The notes below the pieces were generated by a model. It made no database searches. It saw only the letters and a list, made by a program, of their open reading frames with translations, and was not told the DNA's origin. This document shows, piece after piece, positions 21,615 through 48,480 of a stretch of DNA of 64,000 bases. A program made the translations under genes and the position numbers. Each line of letters starts with the position of its first letter. Positions within the stretch are counted from its first letter, which is position 1. This DNA is from Utricularia gibba (taxonomy: Eukaryota; Streptophyta; Magnoliopsida; Lamiales; Lentibulariaceae): assembly GCA_002189035.1 (NCBI GenBank), contig NEEC01000010.1, positions 2,790,001-2,854,000 of the forward strand, given 5' to 3'.

Positions 21615-21935
21615 AACACTACCGCCGCCCAAACTCAAAAACAAAGAACCAATCGCACACCGGATTTCCAAAAAAACAAACGAAACCTACAAAAACAATA
21701 TTAGACAGCTCTGTACTCGCCGAGCGGCGGTAGCGGCGTCGACAGAAACGCGGAGAAGCCAAGGATCGGGAAACCGAGACAAAGATTCCCGCAAGCAGTG
21801 ACTGTGTAGGAGCAACGTCTGCAGGTAAAGCTTTCCCCCAGGGTTTTTATATCGACGGCTGACTCAGCCACTTGCCCTTCCCAAAACTCCAGTAAACTCG
21901 TTAGGTAGACAAATGAGCTTGGCGTACTTGGAAAG
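21615..21935. promoter_or_regulatory. ADNT1 5' leader and promoter, part of the duplicated unit
   Basis: The upstream part (about 21755-21935) reappears at 34436-34825 next to OSC2, including the stretch around aagattcccgcaagcagtga and the later block around gcttggcgtacttggaaagc. It is therefore both the likely ADNT1 promoter and the left edge of the segmental duplication. Confidence 0.6.
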
Positions 21936-22785
21936 CTATTTTTTCATCATTAATTATAATAATAGCTAATAATATCTCCATTTTAACTCCGCCCTTATTT
22001 TAATTTAATTTTAATTGGATAAGCCTAGTTTCTGTACCACATTTTTAAATTGGATGGATTTTCATTTTACAATCAATATACAGTTTAATCATTAATTTTC
22101 AAAATTATATTGTTGTCATTTCAACTTGTTTTTTTATAAATAATTTGATTTTAAATTTATGAAATTACATATTTAATTTTTACATTATCAAAACTAATCG
22201 ATTTTAGATCTTAATATTTTGCCCCAAAATTATAAACATTACGAGGTACAAACATGATATAACTTTAATATAGATATCACTCGATTCTTTGAACACGAAT
22301 TCAAAAAAATTTAACACAAAATTTTTTTGGATTCAAAATAAAAATATTATGAAGCCGTTCATTTTTTTACAAATTTTGAAAAACATTTAGATCTTCAATT
22401 GCAAATTTTTTACAACTTAAAATATTTTTTTGTAATTTTAAAATTTGAACATTAAATTCCTTATATTAACTGAAAATTGAGATATTTTTCTTATAATTTT
22501 TAGTTGATTATGTATCATTTGTTTATATGATTTATGAACGATTAACATATAAAGTTGCAATAAATTTATACGAATGAATAACTAATTTATTACATATTTT
22601 ATAAAATTATACACCACAAATATCACTTAATATATTATAAGTATTATTAAATATATCTGGTTATTTTATTATTATTTGTTTAAAAAAGTTATTGATCATT
22701 AAACCCTAAGCCCTGAATCACCAAACGAATGTCTTATTTATTCAAAAGAATGCCAAATGGTGATCCTTCTTCGGTGCTGGTTCCA
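21936..22785. other. AT-rich intergenic DNA between ADNT1 and OSC1
   Basis: Strongly AT-rich and free of coding signal. The last 80 bp are the 3' untranslated region of OSC1; the block around aaaccctaagccctgaatca near 22702 recurs beside OSC3 at about 42532. Confidence 0.5.
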
Positions 22786-25700
22786 TCAGCCAATACATTT
22801 ACGGTACATGGCTAGAGCCCAGATCGGGAATACATTCCGATAGAGTGGGTAGTGCAGAATGCAGTTTCTCAAGAAGGCTCCAGAAAGTTCCTGAAACTTC
22901 CATTCTCAGTTACTGGATCAAGAGTGCAGTAAACGTTGATTTAGTTACCTGCTGGGGGAAATCTCCATCCTCCAACTGGGCGTTGATCAGAAGCCTTGCT
23001 GCACGGTTGAGTGGGGTGATGTCTCTCTGTGCCTGGAATAAATAATACTTTTTTTAATTTAATATAACAACAAATGGACTGTTGGGTTGGGCTGATGATT
23101 GACCTGGCCCGAATGCATGAGGCCCAACATGGCCCATGAGGTTTGCACCAAGTTTGAGCGATCTCCTTCCAGTGCCACGTACTCCTGTTATTTAATAATT
23201 TTAATTAATTAAGCGTATGTATATATTATTTACATGTTTTCAGAGCTTACCTTCTTAGGGCAAGAAAGGTAGGATTCTCCCCAACCGCCGTCGTCCCTCT
23301 GCGTGCTTAAGAGAAAATTAACTCCTCGACGGATGGCGGAGCAATTCTGGTATGTATTGCCGGCGGCGGATAGTCCGGAGAGTGCGAACCAAGCGCCGTA
23401 GGTGAAGCAAACTGCCCAACTCCCGTACCTTGCAAAACAATATGCTATCGATGATGGTGATTGGGATCGTAAGTGTTGAAGTTCTTTTACCATGAGCCAT
23501 CGGGTCTTTGAATACTCTTGATGTATTCATCAGCTTTCTTGATGGCGATCTCGATTTCTTTATTAAGGTGGTGGGGGTGCAGTTTCTTGAACAGAACTAG
23601 GGCCTCGATTGATGCAGCTGTGCATTCCACGTACTCGTATTCCACGACGATACCTTCGTAAAACTCCGAAGGATTCAGCAACTGCAAAATGTGCTTTTTT
23701 TTTCGGATGAAGTTTAATCGGTTTGGAATGTGGATGTGGGAACCTACCTCAAGCCACTTTGATGCCCCTGCTGGCTCCCAAGCTGAAAAGCCACCATTTT
23801 TGCTCTGCAGTTGTAAACCGTGAGATGGGACAAAATGGAATGGATTATGCCCAACGCGTGTCTGTGAAAAAGTCTCACTTGCAAATACATGATCACATTG
23901 ACAGCATCGTGGAGTTTCACGTCTTTCATCTTGTCTCCAACGATTTCCGGTGACATCATGGAGAAGAGAAGGCAACACTGATAAACAGAAACTCAAAGGG
24001 ATGTCTTTTCCATCAAGAATCAAAATACCAATGGATTGCAAGCGTACCTTTAAACCCTCTGCGGTGCAATCGGAGACTGGCAATCCATGATCTTGATCAG
24101 AAAATGTCCATGATCCTCTAGAAATATGCCGGTACATACTCCGGAAATCACCTGAAGGATTATCCTTCACCTGCATGTGAGTAGCTATTGATATATCTGT
24201 TGATTTGCAGCGTGGCTAGAACATTTGTAATGAAGTAGCAACCTGAGATTTCTTTATGAACTCATGACCCCTCTTTAAGGTCTCTCCTATCTCATCAGTG
24301 AGATCACATTCCAATAATGCTTGTATGGCAGAACTTGCATCCCACAGCTGACTGCCAATACTCTGTTTATGAACCCATGATCAGTTATTGTCAGTTCTAG
24401 ATCATGGATTGTGAGCATTTTTGTTTATAATAACTGAATAAAGCATCGCACTGGTACATTACCTGCATCTTCATGCCATCCTCCGCTACCCACATGTAAT
24501 CGGGGATGCGGGCGAGGTGTTTCTTGACGTACTCCCCCTGAGGATCCTCAACCCAACAAGCCATCAAGCAAAGTGCCTTCTCTATGCAGCCTATGGTAAT
24601 GTATCTACTGTTTTCATCTTCATAATGAACGTGTTTCATGGTAACTTGCAGAGCTTTGTCCCTCAGCTTATAGAAAGGCCAGCGAGACAGTAGAGGCTCA
24701 GCAATTGCATAGCAAGCATCCCAAATGAAGTCCTGTACAAATCCATGCGCATAATACAGATCCTCCTGCCATAGCATACAGGTTTTCAGATCTTGCTCCT
24801 TCCTCTTCATTAAGTGTAATTCATTATCAATGACTAACCTTTGCGCATACTTTTCGCAGGCTTCTCCAATCAATCTTCTCGTAAGGCTCATCATATAACT
24901 CTTGTCTGAGTTCTAAGATCAGAGGAGTGATTGGAGCTACAAATCTCTTGCCATACAAGTAGGACATTGGCATGTAAACCGTACGACAATAACACATCAT
25001 TTTGCCTGCCATTTGAAATAAGATATATCATGTCAACCTGTGTCATGAAAAAGGAAAACAGACAGAAGAGGACCTGGATGCATTGGGAGATATGAAGGGA
25101 ACAACCAGAATTCAGGTGGCATCGGGTTAGTACCGGACCAATCGTACAACCCGATTATCTGAAAATAGGAACAATCATGTACATGTTTCACTAGTCTCAA
25201 TCTCTGAAAGTTTAGAGTTGAGAAAGAGTACCGATAGATAAGTCTTGCCCCAAGAAGGGATGGCCTTAACCGTTCCGTGGTCCATGATCCACTTCCTAGC
25301 TTTGATGCAGGAGGTATTGTTGCTGTCTACGCCCAGAATCCTCATGCAAATGTAACTTAGTGCAGTGCAGAACATCATGCTGTGACCTTCTACATGGAAC
25401 CCCCATCCTCCATCTTCATTCTATCATCAATTCTCAAGTATGTTGTACAGTTTTTTCTCTTGTGCTTAAATTGTTATCTCGTTCTAGTTCTTACCCAAAA
25501 TTGAGTTAGTTTACCTGATGGCAGTACAGATAACGAAGAATCTCTCTGCAGTGTTGGGGTGAGAAAACAGTATTGAGGCATCCCATCATGTACAAGGTCA
25601 TCACCTGCATGGCGTAAGTGGCAAGGTTGAAAAAATTGCAACGCTTTATTTCTAAAACAGGCAAAGGCGAATGCTTTACCAGTGGCGGTAGAAAGTACAG

Positions 25701-26135
25701 CGGGCCGGAGTTTTCTGCGGGCCAGTGGCCGTCGCTGGCTTGCAACGTCGCCAAAAAATGAACCCCACGCCGGAGAGCGGCGGTGGCTTTCTCATGACTC
25801 ACATCTTCATCATCACCCACCCTCACTTGCTGTATCCTTTGCCGAAAGTTACTCTCATGCAAATACTGCACAATTCAGCATGCTATGTAAGTTGGCAATA
25901 ATCACTTGTTCATAAAATTTTCGAACGCAAATACCTGCATCCGCCATAGGAGATCACCGTTTGCCTTCACACGGTGGCGATTCTCCCAAAAGTCACTTCG
26001 GGCCTTCTCCACTGCTTCCCGGAGCTCCGGTGTGCCGTAGTCCTCATCGAAAGTCCACGTCTGTCTTCCCACAAAGTTGTTAGTGGTGTAGAGGTAAGGA
26101 TTATTGTCTCCCTGAGCAACTTTGAGTCTCCACAT
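22786..26135 (-). CDS. Oxidosqualene cyclase 1 (triterpene synthase), beta-amyrin/lupeol-type
   Basis: Cyclises 2,3-oxidosqualene to a pentacyclic triterpene alcohol at the ER membrane. The protein starts [20 protein letters not shown] and ends MYRKCIG, about 760 residues in roughly 17 exons with GT/AG borders, and I see no frame break. Signatures in order: [16 protein letters not shown] (QW-type repeat), [55 protein letters not shown] with the catalytic Asp of [40 protein letters not shown] and [14 protein letters not shown]. The motif that is MWCYCR in beta-amyrin synthases and MLCYCR in lupeol synthases is MMCYCR here. Unlike OSC2, the stretch before DCTAE reads DHGLPVS rather than DxGW-type. 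The product cannot be read from sequence. The 5' flank to about 26620 is shared by all three copies. Confidence 0.95.
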
Positions 26136-26620
26136 GACTGACTACTTGCTATGCTGCGAAGAAAAAATATGATGTCAATGATGGCTTTCTGAAATGCATG
26201 CATGTCGAAGTATTACATGAAAAAACCAAGGTTTGTTTGTCATTTGCAGGCTAGAGAGGAAGGGGGAGTATTCATGACTGGCAAACCTGAATGCCTTGGA
26301 GTTGCCACAAGTGACTCTGAGGAGAAAATGCCTGTGTATCTATAGTTCCATACTACAACAGTAGCTCTGCCTGCATCTTTTATGGGGAGGTAGGAGGTCT
26401 ACATTTACTGCAAGCACGGAGAAGGACATGCATTCAGGCAATTTTTTCTAAAAAACAAAGAATCAAGTTGGAGGGCTGGAGGTATGCAACGATCATCATG
26501 TAATAATTAATGATCCAATATAATTGCTTCACCGTGACCATCTTCCATTCCCTGGACTCTGACACTTTTCAAATCCTAAGGTTTTGCATCACACTCTCCT
26601 GTATTTTGGAGAAATAGGAA
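26136..26620 (-). promoter_or_regulatory. OSC1 5' flank, conserved in all three OSC copies
   Basis: This interval aligns with 38576-39040 (OSC2) and 45982-46345 (OSC3). Shared blocks include ggctagagaggaaggggga and gtgactctgaggaga. It probably contains the promoter and leader, and possibly a 5' leader intron. No specific factor site is claimed. Confidence 0.5.
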
Positions 26621-26813
26621 ATTGTCCTAATCCATAAGCTACACAATTTTTTTACCTGATACGTGTTAAATGTGTGAGTTTTTTACCTATTTTGTTAGAA
26701 ACCATGTCAGACTATATATTTTATTATATTAATTATAAATTTTTTATAATTATAATTAAAAGTATGCATATTTTAATAAAAATATGTTTTATAGTAAAAT
26801 GTTATGTTAATAT

Positions 26814-27365
26814 CTGTGATTGTGACTCGGGTTTCAAAACCGGTTTGACCGGTCAAACTCTGAGTTTGACCGATCAATATATATTATATTAAAATTTATT
26901 TTATTATTATATAATAAAAGTACAAATATAATAACTTAAATCATTATTTGTCATATATAGATATAAAGATTGAGTTTTCATTAATATTATTATTAAATAT
27001 TAATAATAAAGATCATTAACTATTATTATTAAGTTTTCATTAACTCAAACATTGAGCATAAAAAAACAGAGAAATGCATTGATTTTGAATGTCATTTACA
27101 TACCATTGCAATAACAAAACAAGTATTGAAAAATTAGCAAAATTAAAAATTGATAGTGTGCAATATTTATTCAATAGCTATATATAGTACTAAAATCTAT
27201 AAATAAACAATTATTACCCTGCAATTTGATAAAAATAATGGCAGGACTGTTTTTAATAAAAAAATCTTAAAAAATAGGTACTTGATAGACCCTTTAACCG
27301 GTAAAACAAGATAAATCGATTAATCGGTTTGACTCGCCGGTTAACCGGTCGAGTCACAATCACAG
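26814..27365. mobile_element. hAT-like MITE, 552 bp, with 8-bp target duplication
   Basis: The ends are inverted repeats: ctgtgattgtgactcg at 26814-26829 and its complement ending at 27365. Inside both ends lie ccggtt/ggtcaa-rich palindromic motifs. The octamer gttaatat flanks both sides (26806-26813 and 27366-27373). An 8-bp duplication is typical of hAT transposons. There is no coding capacity, so it is non-autonomous. Confidence 0.75.
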
Positions 27366-27373
27366 GTTAATAT

Positions 27374-28344: not shown

Positions 28345-28489
28345 GGGTCCTTTAGTTTTCTACCCACTGCAATTTAATGGTATTTGAAAAGTACCCACTA
28401 TGTGTTACTATGTTAAAAAAGTACCCATCTTCTAAAAATTATTTTTTATTTTATACTATTTTATTCATTTTTTATTAAATAAAGATGCA

Positions 28490-28866
28490 GTCCCACTAGA
28501 TCACCGCGCATGGTCAAGCGATTGTGCGGCGGGAATGGCACTTCATGCGTGCCAGTCCATCACCCGCCCGCACATGGCACGAGCGTCTTGTGCGAGGCGC
28601 AACCCGCACACGCTACCCTGACGCCGCTCCCTTGCATGCGAGGGCCGGCGTGCGTGCATCGTGCGCGACTTGATGCAAGGTCGGGACGTGCAGGCGTCCT
28701 GCATGAGTAGCCACCCGTGCATGCTACCCCAATGCCGCTTGTGCACATGCCCACATCGCCGCGTATCCCACATGACCAATGTACGCTGGAGCAGGGTGTG
28801 CGCCTCCATGCAGCGAGGATGACGCCTCGTCGCGCGCAAGCACTTCACCCACTTTCCCGCTTATTT
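28490..28866. other. GC- and CpG-rich island inside the MULE
   Basis: About 375 bp of high-GC, CpG-dense sequence abruptly bounded by AT-rich DNA on both sides. It contains diverged direct repeats about 108 bp apart (gctaccctgacgccgct near 28610 and gctaccccaatgccgct near 28720). Open frames occur on both strands, as expected from high GC. It may be captured foreign DNA or element-specific regulatory sequence. Confidence 0.65.
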
Positions 28867-28971
28867 AATATAATCAATATATATGTAATACAAAAATAAA
28901 TAAATTTAACTATATAATAATAACTTTTTATCATATAATAATAAAAATTTATTATGATGAAATAAATAACT

Positions 28972-29960
28972 GAATTATTTGATTATCATGTGATGTATTT
29001 GTCACTTGTATGTTATTATGGTTGGTCTTCATAATTCTTTATATAATTTAAGTAAAATCTATGATCACTCAACAAATGAGTACATAAAAATTAAAATTAA
29101 TACATTTACATAAGTTGATTGTATATACAATCATTATATATATAACTAATATAATTTCTGATGAAATAGATTTTAACATCATATTTTTTTATAAATATGT
29201 TTAAAGATATAATAATAACTTTTCGTTATTTAGTAATAAATTTAAATTATATTGAAATAAATTTATTTAAATGAATTATTTGATTCGCATGTGATGTGTT
29301 TGCCACTTCACATAATAAATGAATTATGGTTGGCCTTGATAATTGTTTATATAATTTAAGTAAAATTTATGGCCACTTAACGAATAAGTACATAATAATT
29401 AAAATTAATACATTTGCATAACTTGATTGTATATATACTCAATATATATGTAACTAAATATCATTTTTGATGAAATAGATTTTAACATCATTTTTCCTAT
29501 AAATATATTTAAAGATGTAATAATAACTTTTTGTTATTTAGTAATAAATTTGTATTATATTGAAATAAATTTATTTAAATGAATTCTTTGATTAGCATGT
29601 GATGTGTTTGCCACTTCACATAATAAATGAATTATGGTTGGTCTTCATAATTGTTTATATAATTTAAGTAAAATCTATAGCCACTTAACGAATTAGTACA
29701 TAAAAATTAAAATTAATACATTTACATAAGTTGATTGTATATATAATCATTATATATATAACTAATATAATTTCTAATGAAATAGATTTTAACATCAATT
29801 TTCCTATAAATATATTTAAAGATATAATAATAACACTTTATCATTTAGTAATAAATTTATATTATGTTGAAATAAATTTATTCAAATGAATTGTTTAATT
29901 ATTATGTGATGTGTTTGTCACTTACATCTACATGTTATTATGGTTGGACTCCATAATTAT
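28972..29960. repeat. Tandem repeats of about 305 bp in the MULE 5' region
   Basis: Units begin at about 28972, 29273, 29581 and 29888 (spacings 301, 308 and 307 bp). Each opens with a gaatt-tttgatt-catgtgatgt-like block and contains tggttggtcttcataatt and taatttaagtaaaat. Three full copies and a partial fourth are visible. They lie between the left TIR and the transposase, so they may be a subterminal repeat array. Confidence 0.8.
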
Positions 29961-30062
29961 TTATTTTGCATGGGCAATCATTAGGTCCACAATCATTAAT
30001 TTTAGAGCTTATAAATAGCCACACTCTCATTCGAGAGGTTATGCACAATCTTTGAATCTTTC

Positions 30063-32819
30063 TTGATATCTCTTCATTTGTTCTTGCAAATCTCAATGAG
30101 GAAGCTGGTGCGTGTGAGGATTTTTGCTGAAGGCAATATCATCAACTATGGAGATTTTACAACTTATGATACGCCACCGATAGAATTTACGGATTTTGAT
30201 ATAAATATTGAAATGAAGGATCTCATCAATCAATTGTTTGCATTTTGTGGAATCAACTCCAACGAATATACGCTTAATCTATCTGCCCATTACTATGATC
30301 AGGAAAGTAATACAACGCGATACATGCCTATTTATTCACAGATGGAACTTTCTTATATTTTTCATCCAAGTTATATTACTTTACCGGTGAATTTGTATGT
30401 TAGTTCCAGAAAATCTGTCACTCCCTCCTATTTAGGAGATCCCTCAACATATTTTAACAACTTTCCAAGTAGTTATATTAATGTTGAAGATAATGATGTT
30501 TCAGCAGCTTCAAGGGAAAGTGAAGAAGGTATGTTGCATAATTAATTTTATTAACTTTAGCATTTTATGATATATTATAATTTTAATGTATGATATGTAT
30601 TATGAATCTAATTCACATCTCATATATTAGAAGAGTATGCAAATTATGATTTTGGAGTGGCTCCAAATCCTGATGGTGATGCTTATTGGGATTATGACAA
30701 TGGACACCAAGTTCTAGGAGCAGAACTCCCACCTGAAACCAATGAGTCTGATGATGAAAATGATACAAATGATGAAAATATTATTGAACTCGAGGAAGAG
30801 GAATATGAATCTCCATTTACTATTGGTCAGCTATTTGCAGATAAAGAAGACTTTCATAATGCTGTGCGAAATCACATGATCAAAATTGGCAAGGAATATA
30901 TTGTGCATGATAGCGAGCCAAGAGTTCTAGATCTTCGTTACCCCATGTTTGGAGAACAACAGTGTAGATGGAGAATTCGTGCAGCACATTATAAAAAAAT
31001 CAATAGATGGAAGGTGAATAAACTGACTGAGCCTCATATTTGTCGGCGCCTTGGAGGAAGGTTTTTTAATCACAAGAATATCAATGTAACGTATATTGCA
31101 GAAAAGACCAAGCCGTATGTTCAAGCTGATATTGGGACAAAAGTATCTACAATTGTTACTAAAATCATACAGGAAACTGGTTATACTATACCATATCACA
31201 GAGCTTGGTTTGGAAGGCAAAGAGCATTTCAATTGCTCTATGGTTCTTGGGAGGAGTTAGTTCCGAAACTCCCTTCTTTTTTGCAGGAAGTAATGCTTCA
31301 AAATCAAGGAACAGTAATTGACTATAAACATCGGCAAGATGGCGAAACATTACATTATGTATTTTGGGCATTTGGACCGTGTATACGTGCATACCAGCAT
31401 ACACTCCCTGTTATCTCCGTCGATGCAACACATTTGTATTCCTCTTACAAGCATAAACTACTTATTGCAGTGACACTTACACCACTTCGGAAGATGTTGC
31501 CTCTTGCCTTTGCTGTTGTAGATGAGGAGACAGATGAATCTTGGCATTGGTTTTTACAACACATTGGTACTTATATTATATTGGATAAGCCAACATGTCT
31601 AATATCTGATTGATGTGGTTCAATAAGAAAGGGAGCACGACTTGTGTCTGCGTTTAGTGAAGAGCATGGAGGATGTCATTGATATTGCATTTGACATCTT
31701 CGAGCAAATCTTATGGATAAATTTAAAACTCCCGGAGTCAGAGATTGGTTCAACAAAGCGGCACATTCAAGTTACATTGATAAATTTGAAGAATACATGA
31801 ATAACATTAAACATCTTAATGTTAGGGCATGGGAATACCTGCATGCAATTCCTGCGCAAAAATGGACTTTGTCTTATGATGGTGGCAAGAGATATGGTAC
31901 TATGACAACCAATCAAGTAGAAGGAATAAACTGTGTGCTTTTGGGTGCACGACATCTTCCATTAACACCATTAGCTCAGGTATTATATTAACATCATTTT
32001 AAATAAAATATTTTAATCTAATATGTGTATACCTCCCGTAGGCAACATTCACACGGTGCAAAAAATATATGTATGAAGGTTTGGAAGAGGTTCTTAATAT
32101 GGAGCGTCAAAACAAAGTATTCAGCAAAGAAGCTGAACTCCTACTAAAGCGATGGGATAGACCAATCCCATATACAAATGTTGAGGTTTATGATCGTCGA
32201 CATAAGGTGGTTCGAGTCACAACTATTCGGAAGAATGGCTTGGAGAATGTGTGTTTCGTTAAAATCAAAGATCAAACTTGCACTTGTACCAAATGGCAAA
32301 ATTATGGTATACCGTGCTCTCATGCACAACAAGTAATTTCTCAAACCACAACTTGCTTTATATTTTTAAATACAATATTAATTATATACAAATTGTTTTG
32401 CATGAATAGGCTTGCAAGCTTCTTGGGATCGATCCACTAACATTAGTCAATCCAATCCACCTTCTACGCATCTATTGAATGCATATTGAAATCAATTTCA
32501 GCCACTCAGAACTGAGAAACATTGGCCCTCACCACTAGTGGTTCTTCGTGTTGATCCTGAACGTGCTAGACATGTTCGTCGTGGACGCCATCGTAGTACA
32601 CGCTTTCCAATGAACATGGATAGAGGAAGACATAGACATGTGAAAACGGGATATATGCATGTGGATGAAGACACAACTCCAAGTCATTCACAACCACATA
32701 GATCATCTGTGGATGTGCCATATGGACACAACTTCGAGCCGATTCCTCAACCGCCACGTGCCTCTATACAAGAACGTCCACAAAACCTGAACTTCGACCC
32801 ACCAGGACCATCGAATTAA
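30063..32819 (+). pseudogene. MULE transposase gene (MuDR-type), inactivated
   Basis: The first segment (about 30063-30530) has a PB1-like N-terminal region as in MuDR proteins (VRIFAEGNIINYGDFTTYD). A small intron follows, then an acidic stretch. The DNA-binding and MULE domains come next, with FGPCIRAYQHTLPVISVDAT, KMLPLAFAVVDEETDESWHW and TTNQVEGINCVLLGAR supplying the expected D, D and E residues. A SWIM zinc finger CTCTKWQNYGIPCSH ends the core, and a basic/Pro-rich tail ends at 32819. Three in-frame TGA stops at 31611-31613, 31680-31682 and 31692-31694 fall where the family has Arg (R of ISDR, and both Arg of HRYCIRHL), so each is a single CGA to TGA change. The region near 32420-32530 is also disturbed. 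The gene is dead as read. Confidence 0.9.
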
Positions 32820-33349
32820 CAACGACGTAAGAAAAATGCATTTCAAAGAATGTTTAATTTTTTTTCATAAAATGATGTAAACGCTGCAATTTATTATATA
32901 TGTTGGTTATATTGATCATATTTAATTATGTTATATTGAAATTTTTTTTGTATATTTAGCTTTATTTATAATAAATATGTTGTTAAATCTATTTCATAAG
33001 AAACTATATTTAATTACATATATATATATATATATATATTGATTATACATATAGTCAATTTTAAAAAGTGCATGTGTAGTTATATGATTTATAATGAAAT
33101 CAATATTACATATTTATTTATTTACATTTTTTATAAATATAATAGCTATTTTTGTTATAAAAAATACAATATCATATAATATGAATAAAAAACATGAATA
33201 CTTAACAAATTAATAAATCAAAAAAGAGCTAGTGTGATCACAATTCCAGAATTAGATATTTGACTAATAGATTTTTTAAAAGATTTATTTTATTAAAAAA
33301 ATTTGGTAATGAATAATGATATATATTTTATGATTACTAACTAGTAGGA

Positions 33350-33486
33350 TGTTTGGGCGAAACTAAGTGGATGTCCGAACCGACTAATGTTGAAGAATTA
33401 GCGAATGAGTCGTGGTTGGGGGTGAAATGCCATTCAAACCTAGAACTAGCTGGTTCTCCCCAAAATGCGTTGGGTGCAGTAGTTTG
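33350..33486 (+). pseudogene. Plastid 23S rRNA fragment (nuclear copy) inside the MULE
   Basis: About 135 bp read like the plastid 23S rRNA gene: gtccgaaccgactaatgttg, gggtgaaatgcca and agctggttctcccc, followed by aaatgcgttg. The last phrase with its following bases is of plastid rather than bacterial or cytosolic type. Several differences are G to A or C to T, as expected for an old methylated insert. Both edges pass straight into AT-rich element DNA. It is a fragment and not a functional rRNA gene. Confidence 0.85.
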
Positions 33487-33809
33487 ATTAAAGTGAAAAA
33501 TTAGTTATATTTTTAATGTTTTATAATTCTTTTTATATTTAATTATCATATATTTAGCATAAATTAATAATTTTCACATAATTTATCAAATTTACATAAT
33601 AAAATAAATAGAAAATAAAATTAAAACTCATGTCCGGTATCCGAGTAGATAAAATGAATATATAGGATTTTTGTTTAATAGAAATTGAGTAAAATAGAGT
33701 AGAATAAAAAATAATTTTTAGAAGATGGGTACTTTTTTAACATAGTAGCACATAGTGGGTACTTTTCAAATACCATTAAGTTACAGTGGGTAGAAAAGTA
33801 AAAAACTCC

Positions 33810-34369
33810 CACCAGCACCGACATTGAATGCTCTAGTGACAGTTCGACCGGGAGATGGATGCCTTGACCCCATCGTTATCCTTTTACCAGCATGCATTCT
33901 GAGATTAGCAGAGCCGCAGCTGGAGAAGTTAAAACAAAAAACAATCATTCACCAATTTGAGCCGGCCACCAATGTAAGAGGGGTGGTAGCCCATTAGGAT
34001 ATTGTGGCCCAAACAGGATATTCTGTTTCGCTTTATTTCTTGAAAAATTCATTGAAAAAATATTGTGAAAAATAAAGATAAATTTTTAAAAAATTAGTAT
34101 TTTTAATTACATTTTTTATAAATATTATTAAATTATATTTAATAGTAATATATTAGTATATATATAAGTATATTATAATTGAAAATGTTAATTATATATA
34201 AAATTTTAAGGTATAGATATAATTAACTTTATCTCATTTAGTCATATAAAACTGATATACATATATTAATTAATTTATTTATAATTTATACGTAAACTTA
34301 ATTATAAATTTTCTATACTATGATATCAAATATAATTTTGAAAAATTGCGATTCAAGGCTCGTAAACGG
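33810..34369. other. OSC1-unit flank right of the MULE
   Basis: 33819-34060 aligns with the OSC2-unit flank in two parts (39466-39530 and 40170-40500), interrupted there by an AT-rich element. Shared blocks include cgacattgaatgctct and cccatcgttatcc. The rest is AT-rich, with no gene. Confidence 0.5.
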
Positions 34370-34428
34370 AGGAGATGAGAAATCTCAATGGAATGGCATA
34401 TTCCTTGCAGGGGCCGAAGGATGATGCC
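34370..34428. repeat. Duplication-unit end module, copy A
   Basis: The stretch gatgagaaatctca then tggaatggcatattccttgc and aggggccgaag recurs at 41003-41047. In this copy it abuts the ADNT1 promoter relic; in the other it abuts the bHLH gene relic. It marks the right edge of a duplicated unit. Confidence 0.65.
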
Positions 34429-34435
34429 TCAACCC

Positions 34436-34825
34436 ACAGGATCGGAAAACGGGGACAAAGATTCCCGCAAGCAGTGACTGCAGCAGCAACGTCTCCAGGT
34501 AAAGCTTTCCGCCAGGGTTTTTATACCGACGGCTGACTCAGCCGCTTGCCTTTCCCAAAACTCGAGTAAACTATTTGACTGTATTTGATAGAAATTATAA
34601 ATTGAAATAATTAAATAGAACAAAAAACAATATATTTGGTACATAGGATAAATTATATTATTTATAAATATGAAATAAAATAATTCAAAAGTATAGAATA
34701 TAATAAAATTTTACTATCATATACATCATCTTTATATATTTTCTTATCTTTAATATAATTTTTATATATACCAAACATAATCGTTAGGTAGACAAATGAC
34801 CTTGGCGTACTTGGAAAGCTATTTT
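34436..34825. repeat. Duplicated ADNT1 5' flank, split by an insertion of about 215 bp
   Basis: 34436-34570 matches the ADNT1 upstream region (for example aagattcccgcaagcagtga and ggtttttat). The match resumes at about 34785 (cgttaggtagacaaatga and cttggcgtacttggaaagct), while at 21.9 kb the two parts are contiguous. The intervening AT-rich segment has tatttgataga and accaaacata near its edges, suggestive of an imperfectly terminated MITE. The ADNT1 coding part is absent. Confidence 0.7.
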
Positions 34826-35216
34826 TTAATCATTAAATATAATAAAACTAAACTATGTCCATTTCATTTCGACTGGAAATTCCAACTTTATATATTACAT
34901 TTAGATAAAAAAAATTTATACATAATGATCATTTAGTCATATAATCTATCAAACACAAAATATTATAAATATTTATTTATATTTAGATACAATGTTATAA
35001 AACACATATCCAATATAAATAACAAATATCTGTTTATCTAAACAATAATAATTTTAGTGAACAATAAATTAAACAATCGTATCAAACTAGACCTAAAGTT
35101 ATAATTAAATATATCTCATTATTTATTTTTTTAAAAAAAAACTTATTGAACACTTAACAAATGGCTTATTCATTTAAAAGGATGCCAAATGGTGAACCCT
35201 CATCAGTGATGTTCCA
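34826..35216. other. AT-rich spacer before OSC2
   Basis: No coding signal. The final 60 bp are the OSC2 3' untranslated region. Confidence 0.5.
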
Positions 35217-38200
35217 TCAGCCAATACATTTACGGTACATGGCAAGAGCCCAGATAGGGAACACATTCCGATAGAGTGGGTAGTGCAGAATGCAGTTTCT
35301 CATGAAGGCTCCAGAAAGTTCCTGAAACTTCCATTCTCAGTTACTGGATCAAGAGTGCAGTAAACGTTGATTTAGTTACCTGCTGGGGGAAATCTCCATC
35401 CTCCAACTGGGCGTTGATCAGAAGCCTTGCTGCACGGTTGAGTGGGGTGATGTCTCTCTGTGCCTGGAATAAATAATACTTTTTTTAATTTAATATAACA
35501 ACAAATGGACTGTTGGGTTGGGCTGATGATTGACCTGGCCCGAATGCATGAGGCCCAACATGGCCCATGATGTTTGGACCAAGTTTGAGCGATTTCCTTC
35601 CAGTGCCACGTACTCCTGTTATTTAATAATTTTAATTCATTAATCGTTTGAATATATTATTTATTTATTTATTTTCCAGAACTTACCTTCTTTGGGCAAG
35701 AAAGGTAGGATTCTCCCCAGCCGCCGTCGTCCCTCTGGGTGCTTAAGAGAAAATTAACTCCTCGACGGATGGCGGAGCAATTCTGATATGTATTGCCGGC
35801 GGCAGATAGTCCGGAGAGTGCGAACCATGCGCCGTAGGTGAAGCAAACTGCCCAACTCCCGTACCTTGCAAAACAATATGCCATCGATTATGGTGATTGG
35901 AATCGTAAGTGTCGAAGTTCTTTTACCATGAGCCATCGGGTCTTTGAATGATCTTGATGTATTCAACGGCTTTCTTGATGGATATCCCGATTTCTTTATT
36001 AAGGTGGTGGGGGTGCAGTTTCTTGAACAGAACTAGGGCCTGGATTGATGCAGCTGTGCATTCCACGCACTCGTGTTCCACAACGATATCTTCGTAAAAC
36101 TCCGAAGGATTCAGCAACTGCAAAATGTGTTCTTTTTTTTTTTCGGATGAAGTTTAATCGGCTTGGAATGTGGATGTACGAACCTACCTCAAGCCACTTT
36201 GATGCCCCTGCTGGCTCCCAAACCGGAACGCCGCCATTTTTGCTCTGCAGTTATCAACCGTGAGATGGGACAAAATCGAATGGATTATGCCCAAAGCGTG
36301 TTTGTTAAAAGTCTCACTTGCAAATACATGATCATATTGACAGCATCGTGGAGTTTCACGTCTTCTAGCTTGTCTCCAACGATTTCCGGTGACATCATGG
36401 AGAAGAGAAGGCAACACTGAGAAAGAGAAGATCAAATAGATGTCTTTTCCATCAAGAATCAAGATACCAATGGATTGCAAGTGTACCTTCAAACCCTCTG
36501 CGGTGCAATCGGAGACTCCCCATCCCTGATCTTGATCAGAAAATGTCCATGATCCTCTAGAAATATGCCGGTACATACTCCGGAAATCACCTGAAGGATT
36601 ATCCTTTACCTGCATGTGAGTAGCTATTGATATATCTGTTGATTTGCAGCGTGACTAGAACATTTGTAATGAAGTAGCAACCTGAGATTTCTTTATGAAC
36701 TCATGACCCCTCTTTAAGGTCTCTCCTATCTCACCAGTGAGATCACATTCCAATAATGCTTGTATGGCAAAAGATGCATCCCACAGTTGACTGCCAAAAG
36801 TCTGTTTATGAACACAAGATCAGTTATCTCAGTTCTAGATCATGGATTGTGAGCATCTTTGTTTATAATAACTGAATAAATCATCGCACTGGTACATTAC
36901 CTGCATCTTCATGCCATCCTCCGCTACCCACATGTAATCGGGGATGCGGGCGAGGTGTTTCTTCACGTACTCCCCCTGAGGATCCTCAACCCAACAAGCC
37001 ATCAAGCAAAGTGCCTTCTCTATGCAGCCTATGGTAATGTATCTACTGTTTTCATCTTCATAATGAACGTGTTTCATGGTAACTTGCAGAGCTTTGTCCC
37101 TCAACTTATTGAAAGGCCAGCGAGAAAGTAGAGGCTCTGCAATTACATAGCAAGCATCCCAAATGAAGTCCTGTACAAATCCATGCGCATAATACAGATC
37201 CTCCTGCCATAGCATACAGGTTTTCAGATCTTGCTCCTTCCTCTTCATTAAGTATAACTCATTATCAATGACTAACCTTTGCGCATACTTTTCGCAGGCT
37301 TCTCCAATCAATCTTTTCGTAAGGCTCATCATATAACTCTTGTCTGAGTTCTAAGATCAGAGGAGTGATTGGAGCTACAAATCTCTTGCCATACAAGTAG
37401 GACATCGGCATGTAAACCGTACGACAATAACACATCATTTTGGCTGTCATTTGAAATAAGATATATGATGTCAACCTGCATCATGAAAAAGGAAAACAGA
37501 CAGAAGAGGACCTGGATGCATTGGGAGATATGAAGGGAACAACCAGAATTCAGGTGGCATCGGGTTAGTACCGGACCAATCATACAACCCGATTATCTGA
37601 AAATAGGAACAATTATGTGCATGTTTCACTAGTCTCAATCTCTGAAAGTCTAGAGTTGAGAGAGAGTACCGATAGATAAGTCTTGCCCCAAGAAGGAATG
37701 GCCTTAACCGTTCCGTGGTCCATGATCCACTTCCTAGCTTTGACACAAGCGCTATTCTTGTTGTCTACGCCCAGAATCCTCATGCAAAGGTAACTTAGTG
37801 CAGTGCAGAACATCATGCTGTGACCTGCTACATGGAACCCCCATCCTCCATCTTCATTCTGTCATCAATTCTCAAGTATGTTTTTACTTTTTTTTCGCGT
37901 TTGCTCCAATTTTCATCTCATTTTAGTTGTTGCCCAAAATATTACTTAGTTTACCTGGTGGCAGTACAGATAACGAAGAATCTCTCTGCAGTGTTGGGGT
38001 GAGAAAACTGTGTTGAGGCATCCCATCATGTTCAAGGCCATCACCTGCATGGCTTAAGTGGCAAGGTTGAAAAAACTGGAACTCTTTATTTCTTAAACAG
38101 GCAAAGGCGAATGCTTTACCAGTGGCGGTAGAAAGTAGAGTGGACCGGCGTTTTCCGCGGGCCAGTGGCCGTCGCTGGCTTGCAACGCCGCCAAAAAATG

Positions 38201-38575
38201 AACCCCACGTCGGAGAGCGGCGGTGGCTTTCTCATGACTCACATCTTCATCGTCACCCACCCTCACTTGCTGTATCCTTTGCCGAAACTTTCTCTCATGC
38301 AAAGACTGCACAGTTCAGCATGCTATATAAGTTGGCAATGATCACCTGTTCAGAAAATTTTCCAACGCAATTACCTGCATCCGCCATAGGAGATCACTGT
38401 TGGCCTTCACACGGTGGCGATTCTCCCAAAAGTTACTTCTTGCCTTCTCCACTGCTTCCCGGAGCTCCGGTGTGCCGTAGTCCTCATCGAAAATCCACGT
38501 CTGTCTTCCTACAAAGTTGTTAGTTGTGTAGAGGTAAGGATTATTGTCTCCCTGAGCAACTTTGAGTCTCCACAT
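35217..38575 (-). CDS. Oxidosqualene cyclase 2 (triterpene synthase)
   Basis: A close paralogue of OSC1 with the same exon plan and coding ends (start [12 protein letters not shown], end MYRKCIG), and no frame break in the exons I read. It keeps the DCTAE catalytic motif, preceded by DQGWGVS, nearer the usual family form than OSC1. It also keeps the product-switch motif [19 protein letters not shown] and the QW repeats. Differences from OSC1 include VAGHSMMF for VEGHSMMF in the exon near 37800, an A for G just before the MMCYCR exon, [13 protein letters not shown] for [13 protein letters not shown], and several single residues. Introns are also very similar, so the duplication is recent. The 5' flank to about 39040 is shared with the other copies. 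Whether both copies make the same product is unknown. Confidence 0.95.
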
Positions 38576-39040
38576 GACTGACCACTTCTATGCTGCAAAG
38601 GAAGTATGATGTCAATGATAGCATGACTGACCACTTCGTCATTTGCAGGCTAGAGAGGAAGGGGAAGTAGTAGAGAATGGCAAACCTGACTGCCTTGGAG
38701 TTGACACAGGTGACTCTGAGGAGAAATCCCCTGCTTATCTAGTTCCATACTGCAAGAGTAGCTCTGCCTTCATCTTTTATGGTGAGGTAGGAGCTCTACA
38801 TTTACTGCATGCACGGAGAAGGGCACGCATGCAGGCAATTTTTCTAAAAATCTAAGAATCGAACAGGAGGGCTGGAGGGCCACGCATTGCAGACAGCTAG
38901 GTTGTTGTCCTTTTCAAGGTATGCAACGACGATCTTGTAACAATAAATGATCGAACATTTACACCCCGTGACCATCTTCCATTCCTTAGACTCTGAGACT
39001 TTTTAAATCCTTAGGTTTTCCATCACACTCCCTGGACTTT
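38576..39040 (-). promoter_or_regulatory. OSC2 5' flank, conserved with OSC1 and OSC3
   Basis: Aligns with 26136-26620 and 45982-46345; the likely promoter and leader. A short duplicated phrase (gcatgactgaccactt) occurs twice near 38572-38637. Confidence 0.5.
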
Positions 39041-39189
39041 GGTCGGATTGTCCAAGAAGCCTCAGAATCAAGAAGCCCGCCCCCGGTTCCAATCAGATAC
39101 CGAGGCTCGATCCCAAAAAATGCACGCTGATCAAGATGCTGTACAACCTTCCTCCAAAGCATACGGTTTTCTGCCAAATCGCCCCAATC

Positions 39190-39320
39190 ATCTGCTATTT
39201 GCATTTTACCCTACTAATAGAGTTTCTTTGCGTTTTACCTTACTAAAGACAAGATGAAAGTAGGGTAAAACACAAGTAAAATTTTAAAAGTAGGATATTT
39301 ACCCTATTTCCTCGATCTTC
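39190..39320. mobile_element. Short AT-rich non-autonomous element (deletion form)
   Basis: It starts near gctatttgcattttaccc and ends near atttaccctatttcctcgat. The same two ends bound the longer element at 39540-40175, so this looks like an internally deleted copy. Internal complementary phrases (ttttaccttact and its reverse) could fold. No clear target duplication was seen. Confidence 0.5.
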
Positions 39321-39539
39321 TTCTATATGAATCCTATGTGAGAATTGTTAACTGGGGGACAGAGCCAGACGACTTGTTCAAAATGGAGGGGCGGCTGGAA
39401 ACCCCAGACTGCATGCAGTGCATCAGACCTCCAGATGTTGATCCTATCACAACTACCCACACCGACATTGAATGCTCTACTGACAGTTCCACTGTGGGAT
39501 GAATGCCTGGCTCAGTCGACCTTGTACGGGTGTCAGACG

Positions 39540-40175
39540 GCTGCGATTTGCATTTTAGCTCTGCATTTTACCTTACTAACATTTATTTACTGTTTGCTTT
39601 TATTAAAAATAAATAAAATAACTTTATAATTTTATCAAATGGTGTATTAATTTTCCTTTTTTGAGAGGATTACAAAATATAATTATCAAAATAATAAAAT
39701 AAGATACATTATTTTTGACGAATTTTTTTAAATATTATATTAATGATAAAAAAACAAAATAGATTTCATGAAAAATATCAAACAATACAAATGTAAATTA
39801 AAATATTTTATTTATCAAAAAGTAAAAATATATTTTAATACTTTTTCATATTATTACATAATGATTGAAATAAACAAATTACTTATCAGAAAATATAATT
39901 AAAACAATACAAATGTATAATATATATATTATATAATATTGATTCTGTATGAATAAATTGTGTTGTTGAAAATTTTGGTAAAAGAAATGCATAATGCAAA
40001 ATAAATATGATACAAAAAAAATTATTTACTTTTGCATTTTAATTAAAATTTTTGTTCAATAGTAAGGTAAAATGCAAACCAAACAAAAAAAGTAAGGTAA
40101 TTACTAATGACAAGATAAAAGGTAAAACACAAATCAAATTTTAAAATTAGGGTATTTACCCTATTTCCTCGATGA
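39540..40175. mobile_element. Long AT-rich non-autonomous element (about 635 bp)
   Basis: It begins gcgatttgcattttagc and ends tatttaccctatttcctcga, the same edges as the 130-bp copy at 39190. Subterminal phrases attttaccttact and agtaaggtaaaatgca are inverted copies of each other. It splits sequence that is continuous in the OSC1 unit near 33870. No coding capacity. Confidence 0.55.
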
Positions 40176-41002
40176 AGGCCTTTACCCCATCGTTATCCCT
40201 TTCCCGGCGTCATGCTGATGCATTGTGGGATGAATTAGGAAGGTGGCGTCTGTAAAAAAAAAAAAAAAAAAAAGAACACTGAATTTTTTTCTCTCAGAGA
40301 GAAATTGACAGTAACGAGAAGCACTTGGGCCGAACGTTTGGGCCAACCACAAATGCAAGAGGGGTGTTAGCCCATTGGCCCAGTTTATGTGACTGTTGTG
40401 GCCCATAATACATAGCAATGCTTCGCACAAACAAGATATTTCGTTTCGTTTTATTTCTTGAAAAATGCATGGACTCCAATTCATTGAAAAAAGAGTATGA
40501 AAAATAAATATAATTTTTGAAAATTAATATTTTTTTAAAATTTTCTTATAAAGATTATTGAATTAAATTTAAAAATTATGATTTAAGGGTACTAAGGGTA
40601 TGTTTTGTGTTATGAATTTCTTAAAGTAATTCAATTTAATTTTTGAAGATTTTAATTTTTAATTGTTTTATAGTAAAATCAGAAATTCGGATTCTATGAT
40701 TAACTTCATAAATTATTAAATTTCTTGAATCTCTATATCAGAGATTAAATAGACAAATTATATTATTCAAATTTTATCTATTCTAAAAATACTTTTATAT
40801 CATAAAATTAAATTATATAATAATTTAATATATTAAACTTTATAATATATATTTTACTTTATTAAATTTTATAATATTATATTATATTATCCCACAGTTT
40901 TATAATTTTAAATTGATTCTATTCATATAATTTTAAATTTAATTTTATTCGATATAATCTTGAGCAAACTTCAAATAGAGACGAGGCAATAAATGGATTG
41001 GA
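40176..41002. other. OSC2-unit flank, no gene
   Basis: 40176-40500 aligns with 33860-34060 in the OSC1 unit. A run of 20 A residues lies at about 40257-40276. The remaining part is AT-rich. No gene is supported. Confidence 0.5.
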
Positions 41003-41047
41003 TGAGAAATCTCACTGGAATGGCATATTCCTTGCAGGGGCCGAAGC
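41003..41047. repeat. Duplication-unit end module, copy B
   Basis: Same module as at 34370-34428 (gatgagaaatctcactgg then aatggcatattccttgcagg and ggccgaag). Here it joins a bHLH gene relic. Confidence 0.65.
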
Positions 41048-41395
41048 ATCTTCGGCATGCGATTCAGGTGGACTGAAGTGTCCCAGGAAACTGGAACAAC
41101 TTAGAGGTGAGTTTGAAAAGGGGATTGAACAAGTGGGAGGCAGCAAATCAGGTGGAGCGGCAGCAATACTGTGATGATGAAGAAAAAGATACTGGTTCTC
41201 AGGATCAAAGCCTGTGCTCATCTGATGTGATTCATGAAAACTTGCATTCCCTACAGTAAACGCCTCCATTTCAAGAACAGAAGCAGCAGCAGAAGTTTTC
41301 CTTAAGCATGCTCTTCAGCTTTTTCACCTTCCTTGGGTCCATTGACTTGATGGTAAACGCTCCCTTTTTCCCTGCAAGCTTGGCATCATTTTAAG
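41048..41395 (-). pseudogene. bHLH gene 5' relic (copy of the 49.4-49.8 kb exon)
   Basis: Reads MEAFTVGNASFHESHQMSTG, DLLPPTCSIPFSNSPL and SFLGHFSPPESH, matching the first exon of the bHLH gene at 48481-49789, then stops. The bHLH domain and later exons are absent. Upstream, the Lys-rich KVKKLKSMLKE stretch is out of frame because of one extra base near 41300. It is a truncated fragment left by segmental duplication. Confidence 0.85.
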
Positions 41396-42530
41396 GAAGC
41401 GGTAACCTTAAAATGAGAATCAAAGCTTTATGTTTTTCGCTTTTCAACAAGTGATGTAACCGTTTTAACACAGGACAGAAACAGCAGAAGGGAAACGTGG
41501 AAAGAAACTGCATCAGAATGCCGTGCCATGGGAACCTACTCCACAGTCTTCTTGTTCATGGAATCATTGTAGTTTTTTCCTTGAAGCAATTCATGCGCAC
41601 CTGTAAAGACATTTACAAGAGAAGTTAATCAAATTGTCGACGAAACCGTTATTTATAGTTGAATATTCATGGTATATTGTTATGTTCCGATGCTCTGACA
41701 GGTCCATCCAACTGTCTCCCTGATACCAGATACTCTGCTAGAGTCTTTACCTGGGAAATGAAGAAAAAACAGGAGAAGAAGCCTTCTTTCATGTATCAAC
41801 ATGCATATGCATCCTACACTAACAGTGCCCCTGCCCATATAGTCAAGAAATTATGTCGATGATTCATGAACTATACAGCTTCGCTTAAGCTTTCAATTTC
41901 CAACTTCTGTACAGGCACACTTAATAAGAACACAAATGGCATTCATCGCATGTACACTACTACATGGTACAGGCACAGCATTCGTGCACTACTAAAAAAC
42001 TTGATCGATCACCAGGGAGGAGCATCCATGGCATGCCCCATCAGAGCATCAACCCGACACCAACGATACCCAACCCCACCACGAAAACCACAGCATACTT
42101 ACCGATGCCACAACATCCACCAGATCTATGGTCGGGTTTTTTCCGGCTCGTATTGATCCTTGACCTCCTCCTCATTGGTTTCCAAGGTGGAAGTAATGGA
42201 GATCCTGGAAATGCTTGATGACCTTACTGCGTAGAGCCAGCAAATATGTATTGTTTTCCAGCTTCAAAAGTCGGAGCCACTGCTTATAGGCAAAGAGATG
42301 AGATGCTTGTCTCAGGAAAAGCTTGTTTTGCAATGTTATCGGACTCTCTGGCACGTGTTTGAGAATGATGCAGAGCATCTAGTATCCGTGAGGTATCTCC
42401 ATCCATCCTCCCAACGTCTCCAAGGGCAGAGCTATAAGCAGAAGAATGATAGAGAAATAAGGAAACCAAGCACAAGACATTTTTTAAGAAAGCTAGAGGT
42501 GCATGATTTTGTAATAGTTTCACTAAACCC
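41396..42530 (-). pseudogene. Relic of the neighbouring coiled-coil gene plus spacer
   Basis: This stretch parallels 49790-50960. The coding part (about 42170-42450) keeps ALGDVGRMDGDTSRILDALH, TRARESDNIAKQA and LFAYKQWLRLL. It lacks the CEEKEHIIKLVLRQ segment through a small deletion and is frameshifted after LLALRSK. The first exon of the gene is missing altogether. Together with 41048-41395 it is one duplicated block of about 1.5 kb. Confidence 0.85.
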
Positions 42531-42609
42531 TAAGCCCTAAATCACCAAACGAATGTCTTATTTATTCAAAAGGATGCCAAATGGTGATCCTTCTTCGCTG
42601 CTGGTTCCA

Positions 42610-45600
42610 TCAGCCAATACATTTACGGTACACGGCAAGAGCCCAGATCGGGAATACATTCCGATAGAGTGGGTAGTGGGCAATGCAGTTTCTCATGAAG
42701 GCTCCAGTACGTTCCTGAAAATTCCATTCTCAATGACTCAGTAAGTTCCTGAAAATTCCATTCTCAAGCGTGCAGTAAACGTTGATTGAGTTACCTGCTG
42801 GGGAAATCTCCATCCTCCAACTGGGCGTTGATCAGAAGCCTTGCTGCACGGTTGAGTGGGGTGATGTCCCTCTGTGCCTGGAATAAATAATACTTTTTTT
42901 AATTTAATATAACAACAAATGGACTGTTGGGTTGGGCTGATGATTGACCTGGCCCGAATGCATGAGGCCCAACATGGCCCATGATGTTTGGACCAAGTTT
43001 GAGCGATTTCCTTCCAGTGCCACGTACTCCTGTTATTTAATAATTTTAATTCATTAATCGTTTGAATATATTATTTATTTATTTATTTTCCAGAACTTAC
43101 CTTCTTTGGGCAAGAAAGGTAGGATTCTCCCCAGCCGCCGTCGTCCCTCTGGGTGCTTAAGAGAAAATTAACTCCTCGACGGATGGCGGAGCAATTCTGA
43201 TATGTATTGCCGGCGGCAGATAGTCCGGAGAGTGCGAACCATGCTGTCAATATGATCATGTATTTGCAAGTGAGACTTTTTAACAAACACGCTTTGGGCA
43301 TAATCCATTCGATTTTGTCCCATCTCACGGTTGATAACTGCAGAGCAAAAATGGCGGCGTTCCGGTTTGGGAGCCAGCAGGGGCATCAAAGTGGCTTGAG
43401 GTAGGTTCGTACATCCACATTCAAGCCGATTAAACTTCATCCGAAAAAAAAAAGAACACATTTTGCAGTTGCTGAATCCTTCGGAGTTTTACGAAGATAT
43501 CGTTGTGGAACACGAGTGCGTGGAATGCACAGCTGCATCAATCCAGGCCCTAGTTCTGTTCAAGAAACTGCACCCCCACCACCTTAATAAAGAAATCGGG
43601 ATATCCATCAAGAAAGCCGTTGAATACATCAAGATCATTCAAAGACCCGATGGCTCATGGTAAAAAAACTTCGACACTTACGATTCCAATCACCATAATC
43701 GATGGCATATTGTTTTGCAAGGTACGGGAGTTGGGCAGTTTGCTTCACCTACGGCGCGGAGTTTCACGTCTTCCATCTTGTCTCCAACGATTTCCGGTGA
43801 CATCATGGAGAAGAGAAGGCAACACTGAGAAATAGAAACTCAAAGGGATGTCTTTTCCATCAAGAATCAAAATACCAATGGATTGCAAGTGTACCTTCAA
43901 ACCCTCTGCGGTGCAATCGGAGACTGGCCATCCATGATCTTGATCAGAAAATGTCCATGATCCTCTAGAAATATGCCGGTACATACTCCGGAAATCACCT
44001 GAAGGATTATCCTTCACCTGCATATGAGTAGCTATTGATATATCTATTGATTTGCAGCGTGGCTAGAACATTTGTAATGAAGTAGCAACCTGAGAGTTCT
44101 TTATGAACTCATGACCCCTCTTTAAGGTCTCTCCTATCTCACCAGTGAGATCACATTCCAATAATGCTTGTATGGCAAAAGATGCATCCCACAGTTGACT
44201 GCCAAAAGTCTGTTTATGAACACAAGATCAGTTATCTCAGTTCTAGATCATGGATTGTGAGCATCTTTGTTTATAATAACTGAATAAATCATCGCACTGG
44301 TACATTACCTGCATCTTCATGCCATCCTCCGCTACCCACATGTAATCGGGGATGCGGGCGAGGTGTTTCTTGACGTACTCCCCCTGAGGATCCTCAACCC
44401 AACAAGCCATCAAGCAAAGTGCCTTCTCTATGCAGCCTATGGTAATGTATCTACTGTTTTCATCTTCATAATGAATGTGTTTCATGGTAACTTGCAGAGC
44501 TTTGTCCCGTAGCTTAATGAAAGGCCAGCGAGACAGTAGAGGCTCAGCAATTAAATAGCAAGCATCCCAAATGAAGTCCTGTACAAATCCATGTGCATAA
44601 TACAAATCCTCCTGCCAGAGAATACAGGTTTTCAGATCTTGCTCCTTCCTCTTCATTAAGTATAACTCATTATCAATGACTAACCTTTGCGCATACTTTT
44701 CGCAGGCTTCTCCAATCAATCTTTCGTAAGGCTCATCATATAACTCTTGTCTGAGTTCTAAGATCAGAGGAGTGATTGGAGCTACAAATCTCTTGCCATA
44801 CAAGTAGGACATCGGCATGTACACCATACGACAATAAGGCATCATTTTGGCTGTCATTTGAAATAAGATCTATGATGTCAACCTGCATCATGAAAAAGGA
44901 AAACAGACAGAAGAGGACCTGGATGTATTGGGAGATATGAAGGGAACAACCAGAATTCAGGTGGCATCGGGTTAGTACCGGACCAATCGTACAACCCGAT
45001 TATCTGAAAATAGGAACAATCATGTATATGTTTAACCAGTCTCAATCTCTGAAAGTTTAGAGTTGAGAGAGAGTACAGACAGATAGATAAGTCTTGCCCC
45101 ACGAAGGGATGGCCTTAACCGTTCCGTGGTCCATGATCCACTTCCTAGCTTTGATGCAGGAGGTATTGTTGCTGTCTACGCCCAGAATCCTCATGCAAAG
45201 GTAACTTAGTGCAGTGCAGAACATCATGCTGTGACCTGCTACATGGAACCCCCATCCTCCATCTTCATTCTGTCATCAATTCTCAAGTATGTTTTTACTT
45301 TTTTTTCGCGTTTGCTCCAATTTTCATCTCATTTTAGTTGTTGCCCAAAATATTACTTAGTTTACCTGGTGGCAGTACAGATAACGAAGAATCTCTCTGC
45401 AGTGTTGGGGTGAGAAAACTGTGTTGAGGCATCCCATCATGTACAAGGCCATCACCTGCATGGCTTAAGTGGCAAGGTTGAAAAAATTGGAACGCTTTAT
45501 TTCTTAAACAGGCAAAGGCGAATGCTTTACCAGTGGCGGTAGAAAGTACAGCGGGCCGGCGTTTTCTGCGGGCCAGTGGCCGTCGCTGGCTTGCAACGCC

Positions 45601-45981
45601 GCGAAATAATGAACCCACGTCGTAGAGCGGCGGTGGCTTTCTCATGACTCACATCTTCATCGTCGCCCACCCTCACTTGCTGTATCCTTTGCCGAAAGTT
45701 ACTCTCGTGCAAATACTGCACAGTTCAGCATGGTATATAAGTTGGCATCTTGATCAGCATGCATTTTCCAACGCAAATACCTGCGTCCGCCATAGGAGAT
45801 CACCGTTTGCCTTCACAGTGTGGCGATTCTCCCAAAAGTCACTTCGGGCCTTCTCCACTGCTTCCCGGAGCTCCGGTGTGCCGTAGTCCTCATCGAAGGT
45901 CCACGTCTGTCTTCCCACAAAGTTGTTAGTTGTGTAGAGGTAAGGATTATTGTCTCCCTGAGCAACTCTGAGTCTCCACAT
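42610..45981 (-). pseudogene. Oxidosqualene cyclase 3, inactivated by inversion and frameshifts
   Basis: A third OSC copy, starting MWRLRVAQGDNN at 45981 and ending MYRKCIG-like at 42610. Most exons are recognisable, including [10 protein letters not shown]. It carries clear lesions. First, 43241-43757 is inverted: the exons with MIMYLQ, the SKNGG-type exon and [16 protein letters not shown] lie on the plus strand between the outer minus-strand exons. Second, a lost base near 44733 moves the [14 protein letters not shown] region out of frame. Third, a lost C near 45613 shifts the second exon after AALRRG. The product-switch motif reads MMPYCR, losing a conserved Cys. The flanks at 42532-42600 match OSC1 more than OSC2. 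It cannot make a normal cyclase. Confidence 0.93.
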
Positions 45982-46345
45982 GACTGACCACTTTATGCTG
46001 CAAAGAAAGTATGATGTCAATGATGGCTTTCTGAAATGCATGCGTGTCGAAGTATTACATGAAAAAACCAAGGTTTGTTTGTCGTTTGCAGGCTAGAGAG
46101 GAAGGGGAAGTAGTAGAGAATGGCAAACCTGACTGCCTTGGAGTTGCCACAGGTGACTCTGAGGAGAGATCCCCTGCTTATCTAAAGTTCCATACTGCAA
46201 GAGTAGCTCTGTATGGTAGGAGGCCCACATTTTCTTCAAGCACGCAGAATGGCATGCATTCAGCCAATTTTTCTAAAAAACAAAGAATCAAGTTGGAGGG
46301 CTGGAGGGCCACGCATTGCAGACAGCAAAGTTGTCGTTTTCAAGG
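45982..46345 (-). promoter_or_regulatory. OSC3 5' flank, copy of the OSC1/OSC2 upstream region
   Basis: Homologous to the flanks of OSC1 and OSC2 up to about 46345, where similarity ends (near gcaaagttgtcgttttcaag). Confidence 0.5.
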
Positions 46346-48222: not shown

Positions 48223-48480
48223 GAAAAAGGGTACAGTGCCCCCTTTTAAAGTTTTCACGTACTAAGCAAAAAAGCTGTAACTGCAAGATCACATTTTTGA
48301 GAGCCTGTTCTTTGTATTTACACTTGTATGTTTGTAAGGGAGAAAAGGGAAGGAATGAAGTAGTTTTGAGAATAGCAGATCAAAGAAAGTCAGTTTAGTT
48401 TTGGTTGGAGTTTGGTGAAAAACTGGAATAGTATGATTTGATGATTGAACTATTCATTCTACTACAAGATAGCAGCACCA

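Follow-up and report, generated by a model that had tools for sequence, protein, structure and literature searches.

The window analysed here is a 64-kb stretch of the Utricularia gibba genome, and wider searches covered the 100.09-Mb assembly (516 contigs). From left to right, the genes of interest are an ADNT1-like mitochondrial carrier (19460..21686, exon ORFs, Pfam Mito_carr), three oxidosqualene cyclase genes (OSC1, OSC2 and OSC3), two bHLH genes (bHLH A, 47010..48261, with a Pfam HLH match on the exon-1 ORF, and bHLH B, 48528..49807, also Pfam HLH) and a coiled-coil gene (50428..51906, seen as ORFs). All are on the minus strand. The coiled-coil gene had no match in a Pfam search; by eye, we take it to resemble CAST/ELKS. 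The bHLH genes form a tandem pair (47035-47721 and 48497-49222, DNA 70% identical over 47035-47550) which is probably older than the OSC duplications.

In a self-BLAST of the window the three OSC units (22696-26609, 35147-39042 and 42520-46352) are mutually 91-93% identical. The homologous copies are adjacent and oriented head-to-tail, as the comparison with a second contig (C237, see below) also indicates, so that the array reported in a preliminary description of this DNA is real. The self-comparison called for there recovered the units as well as both relics and the end module described below, none of which is a chance match. Two details of that description need correction. The match between the three copies holds for the units, but not for positions 43238-43757 of OSC3, which are inverted and nearly identical to OSC2; and only part of the matching 5' flanks are 5' flanks, some being 3' flanks, as all genes lie on the minus strand. 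For the same reason, the ADNT1 relic is downstream (3') of OSC2, while the end module is upstream (5') of each OSC.

Spliced gene models were built against PDB 8j5z, the best solved match, to which the array OSC is 64% identical over the positions available. OSC1 (22789..26135, minus strand) and OSC2 (35220..38575, minus strand) both give intact, open models of 16 coding exons and 752 aa. In OSC1, the copy tested against Pfam, the SQHop_cyclase N and C domains score 148 and 200 bits (cut-offs 26), and the DCTAE catalytic motif is found in OSC1-3. Ks among the three copies is 0.084-0.101 and Ka/Ks is 0.26-0.32, which implies that the copies have been under constraint. OSC1 and OSC2 probably encode working cyclases. 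OSC3 (42613..45981, minus strand) is disrupted in the window, while its C237 allele is collinear.

A motif of the M-x-C-Y-C-R type helps to set the product of an OSC. OSC1 and OSC2 have MMCYCR at this place, whereas the two alleles of OSC3 have MMPYCR. In PMC4346913 the beta-amyrin form is MWCYCR and the lupeol form MLCYCR, and MMCYCR is absent among the 22 OSCs tabulated there. The array thus shares both SQHop_cyclase domains, DCTAE and an M-x-C-Y-C-R motif with the beta-amyrin, mixed-amyrin and lupeol synthases, but these carry MWCYCR or MLCYCR, whereas the array has Met at the second position in place of the Trp of beta-amyrin synthases or the Leu of lupeol synthases. Compared with cycloartenol synthases (MWCHCR), it has Met for Trp and Tyr for His. 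As the motif is neither MWCYCR nor MLCYCR, we assign no product to OSC1-OSC3. A search of the literature library found no report on the oxidosqualene cyclases of Utricularia gibba. The other OSCs found in the genome are a cycloartenol-synthase-like gene on contig C375, which carries MWCHCR, and a group of four mixed-amyrin-like copies (L055-L058) on contig C413 (1912500-1975000), where L058 carries a single in-frame stop and the splicing of L055 is irregular. The latter group resembles the array in being clustered on one contig, but it has the motif MWCYCR and only ~52-57% protein identity to the array.

Scraps of both neighbouring genes are found between the OSC units. Downstream of OSC2 is a relic of the ADNT1 5' region (34438..34864, minus strand, the same in C237), the source of which lies upstream of the ADNT1 start codon (21762..21983, minus strand). 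The relic is split by a 208-bp AT-rich insert, so that 34438-34572 and 34781-34864 correspond to 21762-21898 and 21898-21983 at ~91% identity (E 2e-47 and 4e-25). A longer relic between OSC2 and OSC3 (41048..42516, minus strand) corresponds to 49460-50981 at 88.9% (E 0) and combines exon 1 of bHLH B, an intergenic stretch and the last exon of the coiled-coil gene. Both relics had been proposed from a first inspection and are borne out by self-BLAST; the claim that the duplications carried pieces of both neighbouring genes is supported.

The OSC upstream flanks share a weaker similarity, which ends in a short end module. Its first copy (34370..34428, OSC1 flank) ends at the joint with the ADNT1 relic, and its second (41003..41047, OSC2 flank) is joined to bHLH exon-1 sequence. 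A module shared by these two boundaries had been noted before, but it is not confined to them: a third copy lies upstream of OSC3 in C237 (h16359-16407 of the reverse complement). The end module is part of every unit's upstream flank and not a boundary mark. In the genome it was found in the array and in the haplotype copy of the array but nowhere else, and on this ground we rejected it as a transposon end. A strong conservation of the module was not accepted: two of the three pairwise comparisons exceed the flank (p 1.6e-6 and 6.6e-5), but for the remaining one p is 0.10, and the comparisons are not independent of one another.

C237 is a separately assembled contig of 31,585 bases which, apart from two differences, matches window positions 31897-60623 over its whole length at 99.5-99.7%, and is probably the other haplotype. 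It is collinear with the window from 31897 to 43243 at 99.7%. This interval includes both unit boundaries, and as these are spanned in a separate contig they are probably not assembly errors, which counts against the objection that the units might be artefacts. Within 11.4 kb, the two contigs differ by 27 gap bases but only 6 mismatches, an imbalance which indicates that consensus errors are common. For this reason, no weight was given to frameshifts of a single base in OSC3 or in the OSC2 copy of C237, and two 1-base indels in the C237 allele of OSC3 are possibly sequencing errors.

Relative to C237, the window lacks 2.94 kb at position 46791, a deletion, seen in one contig, in which the OSC3 upstream flank with the third copy of the end module is lost. 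At the window joint there is a short GAT match of the kind that a deletion would be expected to leave. In C237, the OSC3 upstream region runs for ~1.4 kb past the end module before bHLH A is reached. Because of this continuation the joint 41047/41048, taken earlier as the boundary of the OSC3 unit at the start of the bHLH relic, is better read as the end of a later deletion. Flank 1 and the third flank in C237 still match for ~11 bases where flank 2 has already ended, so that the two boundaries represent distinct cuts. The joint between the coiled-coil relic and the OSC3 3' flank (42517..42520) is also present in C237.

The other difference between the haplotypes, again seen in one contig, lies within OSC3. 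The segment 43238..43757 (plus strand) can be aligned to OSC1 and OSC2 in the reverse orientation only, with 92.7% identity to OSC1 and 99.0% to OSC2 (35829..36349, minus strand), while the surrounding OSC3 sequence is 91-93% identical to both. C237 is collinear across OSC3, where it shares 91% identity with the inverted segment. Since exons 11 and 12 and parts of exons 10 and 13 are reversed, OSC3 of the window cannot be spliced normally; on the window haplotype it is a predicted null allele, and its model should not be counted as functional, whether the inversion is genuine or an assembly error. OSC2-type states are also found outside the inversion, at 43200 and 43218, and the sequence is OSC3-like again from 43774. 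The ends of the inverted segment look like those of a two-break event in which 2 and 3 bases were lost. Most simply, a conversion by OSC2 would have been followed by a flip in place; what counts against this account is that the right end of the conversion tract falls within 17 bases of the right end of the inversion.

An assembly error, with the true gene collinear as in C237, is a possibility to be taken seriously, although we find it somewhat doubtful. The collinear C237 allele is itself a point in its favour, most differences between the inverted segment and OSC2 are homopolymer indels, and consensus errors are common to judge from the gaps between the two contigs. However, a collapsed paralogue path would yield a forward and not an inverted OSC2 segment, the OSC2-type states reach outside the inversion, and the ends have the appearance of a two-break event with small losses. 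A single replication-based template switch, by which the paralogue was copied in inverse orientation into the homologous position (an inverted gene conversion, heterozygous here), appears quite unlikely. We favour conversion and subsequent inversion.

Exchange between the copies is not restricted to this segment. The informative sites among the three OSC copies fall into 143 runs, compared to 210+-8.2 upon permutation, with a longest run of 15 sites, a pattern of repeated conversion between copies. The OSC copies are gene conversion mosaics, and because of this their Ks values, computed as the pairwise check suggested earlier, do not order the duplications. Ordering by OSC divergence was rejected on this ground and also because the support for the outgroup joining the branch of OSC2 is no more than 50%. 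The relics were also tried, but the divergence of the ADNT1 relic (0.109+-0.024) overlaps with that of the intergenic part of the bHLH/coiled-coil relic (0.095+-0.013). The earlier claim was that the array records two separate duplications, each anchored on a different neighbour. Its two duplication-type junctions (34428/34438 and 42516/42520) stand, while a separate timing does not follow from relic divergences that are indistinguishable.

We consider the following history of the array likely. The starting point would have been a single OSC, complete with upstream flank and end module, that had ADNT1 on one side and the bHLH/coiled-coil genes on the other. This ancestral gene may then have been copied by two tandem duplications, in which ends were joined in the absence of long homology. 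The first of these would have run from 5' sequence of ADNT1 to a point shortly beyond the end module (joint 34428/34438), whereas the second would have begun in the OSC 3' flank and reached the last exon of the coiled-coil gene (joint 42516/42520), the numbering implying no order. If the second was simple, its left copy should have spanned OSC2, its upstream flank, bHLH A and bHLH B up to the relic; a later deletion (~4 kb missing compared to C237) would have joined the OSC2 end module to bHLH exon 1 at 41047/41048. Interlocus gene conversion has presumably mixed the three copies since. On the window haplotype, OSC3 would have received sequence from OSC2, of which 0.5 kb was then inverted in situ at a cost of 2-3 bases per end, while a separate 2.9-kb deletion would have removed the OSC3 upstream flank. 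As to an origin by unequal crossing-over between long repeats, no long homology is seen at the joints, although the ancestral joints may have decayed. An unexplained coincidence, which speaks against this history, is that the ~4-kb deletion ends within ~14 bases of the other joint.

Instead of two tandem duplications, a single complex rearrangement based on replication (template switching) might have produced both joints. In favour of this are the two cuts at the end module, which lie within ~14 bases of each other, and the relic divergences, which are equal within error and similar to the OSC Ks. We nevertheless regard a single rearrangement as unlikely, as a simple tandem duplication explains each joint and the joint sequences contain no templated filler beyond a few bases. 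Two tandem duplications are thus our preferred reading.

Transposable elements are present in the array. A MULE DNA transposon occupies 28345..33809 in the OSC1 upstream flank (self-BLAST, Pfam), with 136-bp inverted repeats that are 91% identical (28351-28486 and 33667-33802), a perfect 9-bp target duplication (CACCAGCAC) and a transposase ORF (30612-31613). Inside it, self-BLAST shows a tandem repeat at 28896-29964 (unit ~300 bp, ~3 copies, 79-87% identity). Near OSC1, the sequence 27000-27370 has seven relatives at 76-88% elsewhere in the genome and is probably a small transposable element. The complete-looking MULE might suggest that transposon capture, by a Pack-MULE or Helitron, carried the units to their places, but this is highly improbable, as its inverted repeats bound only the element itself, no long inverted repeat was found by self-BLAST to flank any OSC unit, and the units are head-to-tail and adjacent.

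A block on contig C451 is collinear with the window on both sides, carrying homeologs of the ADNT1-like carrier and of the coiled-coil gene, but in the 6.4 kb between these no OSC, bHLH gene or end module is detectable. This fits either differential loss or insertion after a whole-genome duplication. ORFs between the homeologs (L039, C451:6590001-6600000) resemble, by eye, what we take to be a thylakoid rhodanese-like protein (TROL) and a dynamin-related protein; neither was seen in the corresponding interval of the window, which would fit a reciprocal gene loss after genome duplication.

Tandem-duplicated OSC genes occur in other plants as well; in Aralia elata (PMC9038795), for example, tandem duplication has raised the number of triterpenoid biosynthetic gene copies. 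What sets the present array apart is that its joints, neighbour scraps, gene conversion and allele-specific inversion can be read base by base. As a class of thing such an array is ordinary; this one and its joints are well documented. Arrays of specialised-metabolism enzymes usually keep only blurred traces of their growth. Here the steps are readable from two joints with neighbour scraps, together with another haplotype and a homeologous block that lacks the genes. The two OSC3 alleles, one broken and one whole, the mosaic left by conversion and the motif change add further value. The array also warns that, under gene conversion, the divergence between copies cannot date an array. The uncommon residue in the product-determining motif of both intact copies is directly testable.
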